A stretch of DNA of 64,000 nt from Tautonia marina (GTDB lineage Bacteria > Planctomycetota > Planctomycetia > Isosphaerales > Isosphaeraceae), in assembly GCF_009177065.1 (NCBI RefSeq), contig NZ_WEZF01000026.1:1-64000 (forward strand), given 5' to 3'. The position numbers were made by a program, and so were the translations under genes. The first letter of the stretch is position 1; each line of letters begins with the position of its first letter. The notes under the pieces were generated by a model, which worked only from the letters and a program-made list of their open reading frames with translations, made no database searches and was not told the origin of the DNA. This document shows positions 1 to 2,750 of the stretch, piece after piece.

Positions 1-146
1 AGCAGCGGATCCAGGAATTCCGAAACCGCCTCCAGGCGTTCCGCCAGCAAATGGAACAACGGCGCCAAAACCTGCCGCCCCGCCGTCCCGTTCTGCCCGC
101 CTTCCCCCCCAGACACCCCGGCGGAACCCCGCACCATCAGGCCTGA
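1..146 (+). CDS. C-terminal end of an unidentified protein (partial)
   Basis: The frame starting at base 3 stays open for 47 codons and ends at a TGA at 144-146. Almost every third codon position is G or C, as in the real genes of this window. The tail begins with a charged, Gln/Arg-rich helix-like stretch and ends in a Pro/Arg/His-rich segment, which is typical of a disordered C-terminus. The rest of the gene lies upstream of the window, so no function can be assigned. Confidence 0.55.
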   Translation, partial: QRIQEFRNRLQAFRQQMEQRRQNLPPRRPVLPAFPPRHPGGTPHHQA

Positions 147-471
147 TCTCGCAACCTCTCGGGGCGGTCCCTCGCCTGGGATCGCCCCTCCGATCACTTG
201 CGTCGACCCGTCATTACCTAAGTTCCGTCGATCCCGCAGATTGCGTACGTTCCCAACGGCCGGAATGATACCCCCGAATCGGCATCATGAACTGGGTAAA
301 ATGTTGAAGGACGGCAATTTCCTGGCTATGCTTTCACCAGTGTCGCACACCCACGAGATGACCCGCAGTCGAGCCCGGTCAGGACGGAGGTTGAGCCTCC
401 CGACTCACCGTTCCGGATCGTGACTGTCGAGTGTCCCTGACGAGTTGCACCTGCCGAGAGGAGCCCGCACC
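147..471. other. Intergenic stretch with no gene seen
   Basis: These 325 bases lie between the partial first gene and the esterase-like gene. The only open frame of note (241-423) has no ribosome binding site and an amino acid composition unlike a protein. I see no convincing promoter, hairpin or repeat. A good Shine-Dalgarno AGAGGAG at 457-463 belongs to the next gene. Confidence 0.5.
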
Positions 472-1260
472 ATGTTTCAGGAACGCCGGACGCCCGGCTC
501 GATGGAACGGTCGTCCGGGATCGGGGCGGAGACGTCGGTCGAAGCGACCTTCATCCCTCACCGGTACGAGCCGAACTACGCCTATCCCTTGCTCGTGCTC
601 CTGCATGGTCGGGGCGGCGACGAACAGCAGCTCGTCGACGCCATGCCGACAATGAGCTGGCGAAATTATGTGGGCCTGGGACTTCGCGGTCCCGATCCCG
701 TCCATCGCGCGGGAAAGGTCGCCGGCTATGACTGGGGAGCCTCCTTCCGGCACCCACGCCGCAGGCCCGGCCCGCACTGGGAGGAGATCGAGCCGGACGC
801 CATGCTCCATCGCTTCATGACGCACGGCGCGGCCGACTCCTTCGACTCCATTGAAGATACCCTCTTTGCCGCCGTCTGCCGCACCATGCGGGCCTTGCAC
901 GTGCATTCCGAACGAATCTTTCTGGTCGGCAGCGGCGAGGGGGCAGCCGTCGCCTTTCGCCTCGGCTTGACGCACCCCGAGCGATTCGCGGGTGTGGTCG
1001 CCTTGAATGGCTGGATCCCCCGAGGGTTCCGCCCTCTTGCTCGCTGGGAAGCCTGTCGCTCGCTCCCGATCCTCTCCCTGCATGGACTCTGGAACGCCCG
1101 AGCGCCGATTCAGGATGCGATCAAGGACGACCGGCTCCTGCGCAACGCCGGCCTTCCCATCACCTCTCGGGTCTACAACGCGGCTCGAACCATCACCCCC
1201 CCGATGCTCTCCGATGTCGATTCCTGGCTGATTGAGCAATGCACCGCGGGTATCCGCTGA
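472..1260 (+). CDS. Carboxylesterase/phospholipase-fold protein with a degenerate catalytic triad
   Basis: The 262-residue protein matches the small serine esterase (YpfH/carboxylesterase) pattern. It has an oxyanion-type LLHGRGGDE at 43-51 and a nucleophile elbow G-S-G-E-G with Ser154. It also has the positions that normally hold the Asp (HGxxD) and His (GHS) of the triad. Here the Asp position is Asn208 (HGLWNARAP) and the His position is Arg239 (NAARTI). The fold therefore looks intact while two of three catalytic residues are lost. The ATG at 472 follows AGAGGAG by 8 bases and is preferred to the in-frame start at 445. It could be a binding protein or pseudoenzyme. Confidence 0.8.
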   Translation: MFQERRTPGSMERSSGIGAETSVEATFIPHRYEPNYAYPLLVLLHGRGGDEQQLVDAMPTMSWRNYVGLGLRGPDPVHRAGKVAGYDWGASFRHPRRRPGPHWEEIEPDAMLHRFMTHGAADSFDSIEDTLFAAVCRTMRALHVHSERIFLVGSGEGAAVAFRLGLTHPERFAGVVALNGWIPRGFRPLARWEACRSLPILSLHGLWNARAPIQDAIKDDRLLRNAGLPITSRVYNAARTITPPMLSDVDSWLIEQCTAGIR

Positions 1261-1502: not shown

Positions 1503-2750
1503 ATGGGGACGTCAGTGGCGTTCGGTTGCCCCGAATGTGGCCGGAAGCTCCGGCTGAAGACGCGCTCTTCCGGGCGTCAGGTTCGTTGTCGGGGTTGTGG
1601 AACTCTGGTCGAAGTCCCGTTCTTCCCCAGGCACGTCGGACGGCGGCGTTCGAAGCGATCGCGATGGCGGCGGTGGGGGCCGCTGGCCTTCGGCCTCGTG
1701 GTTGCCGTGCTGGTTCCGGTCCTCGCCTGGCGGTGGTGGCAAGCATCCCTTCGAGCCGATCGGGCCGAGGCCATCGCTCAGGCTGTCGCGGAGATGGAGC
1801 AGGCCGAGCAGGCCGGGGATCGCTCAACCGCCTTCCTCGCCGCCGACGCGGCGCTCACCTTGGCCCGTCAGTCTGCCATCGACCCGCCGGGCGGCCTCGA
1901 TCGCCTGGCCCTTCGTCGTGATGAACTGGCACGCGCCGATGTCTCGGCTCAACTGGAGTCCCTGGCCAATCAACCGCCTCGGGAGGCCCTGAACCAGGCC
2001 CGAGCGGTGGCCGATCGGGTGAACTCCGACCCGGCCCTGAGCCCTCTGAACAGCCGATCGGAACTGGCCGTTTCCGAGGCCGCCCAGCGATGGACCAGCC
2101 GGCAATTGACCCAGGCCGAGGCCGCGCTCGCCTCTGGAAATCCGGCCAGTGCGCTTGCGTTTGCCGATCAGTTGGCGAAGGACCTTGCTCCTCCGCCGGC
2201 CTCCCCGATGGCCTCCGCTCGGGATCGCCTCCGGAGCTTTGTGGCCGCGATTGTGGAGACGCGAGGCATCAGGATCGAACCGATCGACCTGACCCCGGGA
2301 CCGACCGGACCACCCGCGGAGACCTTTCTCTCAGACCTTCGCCAGGTCATTCAGGACGGGCTGCACCGACGCGGCTATGTGGTTGCCCCTCCAAACTCAT
2401 CGCTCGCGGAACTCTGGAACGAGGCTCCGTTCCGCTTTCAAACCCAGCTGACCGAGCAATACGGCGCCTCGTATCTCCAATCCGCACACCAGACCGCCTT
2501 GATTCGAACCGAGCTGGAGCTTGACCACTCTGGCCAGACCCTTTGGAGCGACTATTTCGAGGCGAGAACCCGAGTCCCACTTCCTGGACTCAGCGCGATG
2601 GAATCCAGTCGCCTGGAGATCGGGCGTGAGCCCAGCCTCGAAATCGAGCAACGGTTCGCCCGCGATGCCAGGGCCGACCTGATCGACAAGCTTCGCGTCA
2701 AGCTCGGCAGTCTTCCCGCCGTCGAGGGAACGCCCTCGGAAACGCGTTGA
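1503..2750 (+). CDS. Zinc-ribbon protein with one membrane segment, unknown function
   Basis: The N-terminus carries a zinc ribbon with Cys9-x2-Cys12 and Cys29-x2-Cys32, like the small MJ0042-type ribbons seen in planctomycetes. A basic linker and one transmembrane helix follow at about 58-77. The remaining ~335 residues are Ala/Glu-rich and probably helical (80-210), then a mixed domain (230-400) that I do not recognise. The likely topology is ribbon inside and large domain outside. The ATG at 1503 is chosen because it opens directly on the ribbon. A TTG at 1455 would add 16 residues, and its AGGAGG at 1426-1431 is too far away. It ends 9 bases from the convergent glycoside hydrolase gene. 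Confidence 0.7.
   Translation: MGTSVAFGCPECGRKLRLKTRSSGRQVRCRGCGTLVEVPFFPRHVGRRRSKRSRWRRWGPLAFGLVVAVLVPVLAWRWWQASLRADRAEAIAQAVAEMEQAEQAGDRSTAFLAADAALTLARQSAIDPPGGLDRLALRRDELARADVSAQLESLANQPPREALNQARAVADRVNSDPALSPLNSRSELAVSEAAQRWTSRQLTQAEAALASGNPASALAFADQLAKDLAPPPASPMASARDRLRSFVAAIVETRGIRIEPIDLTPGPTGPPAETFLSDLRQVIQDGLHRRGYVVAPPNSSLAELWNEAPFRFQTQLTEQYGASYLQSAHQTALIRTELELDHSGQTLWSDYFEARTRVPLPGLSAMESSRLEIGREPSLEIEQRFARDARADLIDKLRVKLGSLPAVEGTPSETR

Follow-up and report, generated by a model that had tools for sequence, protein, structure and literature searches.

Carboxylesterases and acyl-protein thioesterases of the Pfam family PF02230 are the closest described systems for the protein analysed here, among them the P. 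fluorescens carboxylesterase 1auo, in which Ser114, Asp168 and His199 are the triad residues. In the usual topology of this fold, the parallel strands begin, and the first and last helices end, on the side remote from the catalytic site.

Pseudo-alpha/beta-hydrolases as such are already known. Neuroligins have the alpha/beta-hydrolase fold without the active-site serine and serve binding (PMC8526735, as far as the accessible part of this source goes), but they are eukaryotic, membrane-anchored and belong to another hydrolase family, whereas the protein described here is bacterial and has no hydrophobic leader by eye. Plant carboxylesterase-like cyclases are likewise carboxylesterase-like proteins that have been recruited to another function, but according to the accessible part of PMC10873640 they are enzymes, whereas the putative role of the planctomycete protein is non-catalytic. 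No account of such a planctomycete family was found in the accessible parts of the open-licence literature.

Gene, family assignment and predicted fold

The window is the whole stretch of 64,000 nt that was analysed, which is the start of its contig in a Tautonia marina genome of 7.07 Mb in 80 contigs. Its forward strand carries the pseudo-esterase gene at 472..1260, an intact open frame of 262 codons plus stop, and this assignment is in line with open frames in relatives and with the dN/dS values given below. Judging from the sequence, the purine-rich GAGAGGAG at 456..463 (+) likely serves as ribosome-binding site of the ATG start codon (472), and an in-frame TTG at 445 (+) is a possible alternative start.

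By sequence and by fold, the encoded protein is a member of PF02230, which it matches with an E-value of 6.3e-11 and 43 bits versus a cut-off of 23, and 76 of 80 family members match the same Pfam entry at E<=0.001. Four class proteins searched against NCBIfam gave no match near the cut-offs (best 46.5 bits versus 150). The same genome contains two further, weaker PF02230 matches, L188 and L189, on contigs C2 and C1.

The AlphaFold model of the window protein (pLDDT 88.6, pTM 0.87) has carboxylesterases and acyl-protein thioesterases as its best solved-structure matches (Foldseek was also run), with 1auo_A matched at a Z-score of 24.5 and an rmsd of 3.0 over 208 aligned residues. The esterase fold that had been proposed from the sequence is thus borne out by the Pfam match, the model and the 1auo_A match together. 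A far member of the class family, L156, gave a model of pLDDT 87.3 that matches 2h1i_C (Z 19.8, rmsd 2.9, 191 aligned; Foldseek also run), and judging from this model, far members retain the predicted esterase fold. With the active enzymes of PF02230, the window protein shares the fold, the Pfam match, the elbow glycines and the LHG motif, but it has none of the catalytic residues Ser, Asp and His. The motifs YEPNYxYP and S-x-R-N-Y are, in contrast to PF02230, specific to the class members, whose conservation is centred away from the active site.

The triad positions of the window protein

In two alignments with 1auo, the numbering of which was checked, Ser114 corresponds to Gly155 (934..936, +), Asp168 to Asn208 (1093..1095, +) and His199 to Arg239 (1186..1188, +), the last being Arg in all four Tautonia copies. 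Since the modelled strand ends at residue 154 and the following helix starts at 156, the nucleophile elbow is Gly155. Ser154 (931..933, +) precedes the nucleophile place in the alignments and in the model, and it occupies the first X of G-X-Nu-X-G; as a nucleophile it is ruled out by the 1auo alignment and by the modelled elbow. The sequence-only reading had correctly placed Asn208 at the Asp position and Arg239 at the His position but had regarded Ser154 as a retained nucleophile, and the structure prediction, while confirming the esterase fold, corrects it on this point. As the nucleophile place is Gly155, the serine has been lost as well and the whole triad is absent: the window protein has neither a Ser in G-x-S-x-G, nor the acid, nor the His.

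Loss of the triad throughout the class Planctomycetia

Apart from A4, which consisted of 12 of 14 active rows (L183 and L184 omitted), the sequence sets contained the window protein, together with 42 of 55 homologues in A1, with 23 others in A2, the query set of the all-species scan, with 79 of 80 loci in A3 (L093 omitted for its long N-terminus) and with 46 of 80 loci in A5. After removal of identical or contained sequences, 174 rows were kept from 217 loci and the window protein, 160 of them from class Planctomycetia and 14 active. The all-species scan relied on two short peptide patterns, and since YEPNY[AP]YP was among them, its rows are biased for that motif; 80 of 115 relatives were kept, and all 80 bear planctomycete titles.

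Of 59 near genomes, 58 contain a match, which in a few cases is to other hydrolases only. At E<=1e-15, the search matched 384 of the 397 genomes sampled from the class; this is an upper figure, as roughly 28 of these matches do not reach 1e-25 and could stem from active paralogues. At least one genome that consists of a single contig (G052) has no match at E<=1e-15.

None of the 160 non-redundant Planctomycetia members has an intact Ser-Asp-His triad, whereas all 40 relatives outside the class have it, and the loss is therefore not a matter of chance. This comparison set is made up of 14 out-of-class loci (L172, L174-L186), which are best matches only of the class-family profile search, and of 26 of 30 further relatives (26 of L280-L309), which lean to intact sequences because they were found with a profile built on 12 of the 14 active loci. 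These intact PF02230-like esterases of other planctomycete classes belong to the same fold family and are the nearest sequence relatives found outside the class, but they vary at the positions of the class-specific motifs.

The serine at position 155 is absent in 159 of the 160 class members, and the residues found there are Gly (78), Cys (25), Asp (20), Glu (9), Arg (7), His (6), Ala (5), Gln (4), Asn (2), and Leu, Ser, Trp and Thr once each. At position 208, Asn (85) is followed by Ser (45), Asp (15) and others, and at position 239, His (86) is followed by Asp (27) and others. The 155-208-239 combinations include GNH (33), CNH (24), DSH (10), GSD (8) and DSQ (7), with some very divergent rows of family f2 being aligned with doubt at these places. 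All three places are non-canonical in 63 of the 160 members, and the five members with two canonical residues each have Asp and His without Ser. The sole Ser155 is found in L045 (genome G045), in which the triad is not restored, as Ser occupies the acid and the base places too. Homologs with the normal residues, next to which this copy would show random changes, had been named as the case that would argue against a conserved pseudoenzyme, but none of the 160 class homologs has the complete set.

Tree and order of the losses

In an IQ-TREE tree of the 174 rows, which is a quick tree with long branches and with the triad columns included, the 14 active rows are separated from the rest by a branch whose SH-aLRT value is 100. 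Parsimony on this tree requires 2 changes between Ser and not-Ser (one loss, plus L045), 12 changes for the acid, 18 for the base and 43 for the identity of residue 155. With 2 changes versus 43, the simplest history is therefore a single early loss of the nucleophile followed by drift. We infer that the nucleophile Ser was lost once, at the base of class Planctomycetia.

The 36 Isosphaeraceae rows all have Gly155. Their triad places read Gly-Asn-His in 24 rows, Gly-Asn-Arg in the four Tautonia rows, Gly-Asp-Gly in three, Gly-Asn-Asn and Gly-Asn-Gly in two each, and Gly-His-Glu in one. The remaining 32 rows of this family thus lack Arg239, which is present in eight of the 160 class rows, the four Tautonia rows and the far members L148, L154, L171 and L242. 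As read from these alignments, the losses are of unequal age: that of Ser is class-basal, the exchange of Asp for Asn is common to most Isosphaeraceae rows, and that of His for Arg is found in all four Tautonia. The alignment of homologs that the sequence-only reading had called for therefore has two outcomes, as Asn208 is found in most Isosphaeraceae rows, whereas Arg239 is there restricted to Tautonia.

Copies on contigs titled Singulisphaera sp. GP187 (L106) and Candidatus Kuenenia stuttgartiensis (L117, L122) group with Gemmatales-like rows in the tree; these are MAG contigs, and their titles may be wrong.

Selection on the gene

Between the window copy and the nearest copy (G003), dN/dS is 0.088 (NG86) or 0.058 (YN00), and the longer frame gives 0.097. 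For three genes nearby, the values are 0.206, 0.099 and 0.120, and that of the pseudo-esterase is no higher than these. Other Tautonia pairs range from 0.149 to 0.296 (NG86) and hence lie above the nearest pair, and comparisons with other genera reach 0.394 but have a high dS and are little informative. The frame is open in all four Tautonia copies. The protein therefore combines absent catalytic residues with purifying selection, as is characteristic of a pseudoenzyme, and there is neither relaxed selection nor a broken frame, as would be found in a decaying pseudogene.

Conservation away from the old active site

If class members and active relatives are compared position by position (160 versus 40 rows), the two sets have nearly the same mean conservation (0.351 and 0.343), but it lies in different places. 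Residues 239, 204, 154, 156, 155, 46 and 208 are among the largest losses in the class, and the largest gains are seen at Tyr32, Ser62, Tyr38, Tyr36, Glu33, Asp250, Asn65 and Arg64. Tyr36, Tyr38, Pro39, Asn65 and Trp252 are invariant in all 160 class members.

These gains lie in three elements. Residues 32-39 (YEPNYAYP; 565..588, +) form a class-specific motif ahead of strand beta3, in which Tyr36, Tyr38 and Pro39 are also invariant in the 107 rows that remain without the pattern-found loci. Residues 62-66 (S-W-R-N-Y; 655..669, +), with the invariant Asn65, precede strand beta4. The last helix in the AlphaFold model, residues 243-258 (1198..1245, +), carries Asp or Asn at position 250 and the invariant Trp252.

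The constraint has shifted from positions after strands to positions before strands by +1.46 z in the comparison of 160 class members with 40 active relatives, in which the active set mixes paralogues and the class set looks like one orthologous group, a difference that could alone favour conserved motifs in the class. Because one search had used the YEPNY pattern, the test was repeated on the 107 rows without pattern-found loci, and the shift of +1.43 z was reached by none of 236 circular shifts. On these 107 rows, it was reached by 3 of 236 shifts when the catalytic columns were removed, and by 5 of 236 when only strands 5-8 were used. From the sequences and the geometry of the fold, the YEPNYxYP loop and the S-x-R-N-Y turn, like the end of the last helix, would sit at the end of the sheet that faces away from the dead active site, where they would form one exposed patch.

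Genomic surroundings

There is no neighbour that is common to all loci examined, and the gene order differs between groups, so that it gives no reading of a partner; a conserved operon is ruled out for the same reason. This is based on neighbourhood genes that were called by a home-made rule and on neighbours that are partly identified. In many Isosphaeraceae loci, the gene is flanked by a secreted-looking repeat protein and a zinc-ribbon protein. The window begins with the end of such a repeat-rich, secreted-looking protein (3..146), cut by the contig start, and the same gene lies upstream in the three congeners; at locus L104, the secreted-looking repeat protein has a CARDB match. A zinc-ribbon-type protein is encoded at 1503..2750, is conserved beside the pseudo-esterase in many Isosphaeraceae loci, and evolves about twice as fast (dN/dS 0.206).

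A malate dehydrogenase gene is found up to 5 kb upstream on the same strand in 24 of 92 distinct loci (L071, L073, L128, L132, L133, L136, L137, L139, L140, L143-L145, L147-L150, L152-L154; L062, L075, L088, L094, L100). In Pirellulales-type loci it mostly lies no more than 600 bases away, but in five Isosphaeraceae loci the distance is 2.2-4.0 kb, and we therefore regard it as a remnant of old gene order and not as a partner. Gemmatales-like loci (L107, L110, L115, L120-L127, L129, L131) have a gene directly downstream on the opposite strand that we take to be HslU-like from motifs, often followed by one that we take to be HslV-like.

A putative docking protein

The data are, in our opinion, rather well explained if the protein is a class-wide PF02230 pseudo-esterase that has lost its nucleophile once and that probably serves as a non-catalytic binding or docking protein, possibly as a scaffold. 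In such a scenario, an ancestral active Ser-Asp-His esterase would have undergone a single loss of its nucleophile at the base of class Planctomycetia, as alignment, tree and parsimony suggest, and the protein would have been retained for another job while the old active-site places drifted. The present job would most likely be non-catalytic binding, that is docking to a partner macromolecule or to itself, with the YEPNYxYP loop, S-x-R-N-Y turn and last-helix end as the putative docking surface. Binding is more probable than ester cutting because the Ser is absent class-wide and the gene is nevertheless under selection, and we infer both the absence of catalysis and a binding via the newly conserved surface. 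Of the two fates that had been considered for this gene at the outset, the conserved pseudoenzyme is the one that agrees with the absence of Ser in 159 of 160 members, with purifying selection and with matches in up to 384 of 397 genomes, while the binding role attached to it is a matter of interpretation.

A more far-reaching version, which we put forward tentatively and would not yet expect to be right, is that the esterase fold has been turned round, with a core docking protein using a working surface opposite to the old active site in an unrecognised, planctomycete-specific cell process.

What alternatives exist for a docking function? The pocket could in principle catalyse another reaction without the triad, similar to the plant carboxylesterase-like [4+2] cyclases, which offer a precedent (accessible part of PMC10873640). 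The retention of His45 of the LHG motif in 159 of 160 members and of Gly153 in all 160 would agree with a non-hydrolytic enzyme. Nevertheless, positions 155, 204, 208 and 239 lose conservation throughout the class, which is not what one shared new reaction would predict, and the partly identified neighbours of the gene show no recurring biosynthetic cluster. Such an enzyme thus appears rather unlikely.

The protein could also be a small-molecule receptor that binds an ester or acyl ligand uncut in the old pocket and signals via its surface, in the manner of the plant receptor GID1. The fold is retained, and Asn208 and His239 occur together in 71 of the 160 rows, whatever residue is present at 155, so that the old site may still serve some role in some orders. 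However, as the above-described old-site combinations vary from group to group, one shared ligand is unlikely, and we consider a receptor function improbable.

Another possibility concerns relatives, mostly Gemmatales-like ones, in which Cys155, His239 and Asn208 might have re-armed a hydrolase with a cysteine-type triad. Asn208 and His239 are indeed present in 24 of the 25 rows with Cys155, but the same pair is also found beside Gly (33), His (5), Arg (3), Asn (2) and, once each, Trp, Asp, Glu and Ala at position 155. The pair is therefore kept regardless of the nucleophile, which weakens the idea of a Cys-His-Asn hydrolase to a degree that makes it very improbable. For the window protein, which has Gly155 and Arg239, a Cys nucleophile is impossible, and in the relatives it is a weak candidate. 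The 24 of 160 class members with a possible cysteine-type triad are L037-L040, L105-L107, L112, L117-L122, L124-L127, L129, L131, L221, L261, L262 and L266.

Finally, a recent loss of function with the gene now in decay, the second of the two fates considered at the outset, could be read from the restriction of Arg239 to Tautonia among the 36 Isosphaeraceae rows and from the dN/dS of 0.296 between two other Tautonia copies, but it is ruled out for practical purposes by the nearest-pair dN/dS of 0.088-0.097, the open frames of all four Tautonia copies and the class-wide absence of the Ser.

Implications

The pseudo-esterase interpretation has consequences for annotation. For a gene with matches in almost every sampled genome of the class, the name carboxylesterase, which a Pfam match would confer, is very likely wrong and therefore misleading. 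The family also provides a clean example of its kind, with one nucleophile loss, a long drift at that place and a selection that continues on the rest of the protein, and what replaces catalysis in a pseudo-esterase family thus becomes a testable question. Planctomycete cell biology is unusual, and it can be approached directly through a conserved gene that has no known function.
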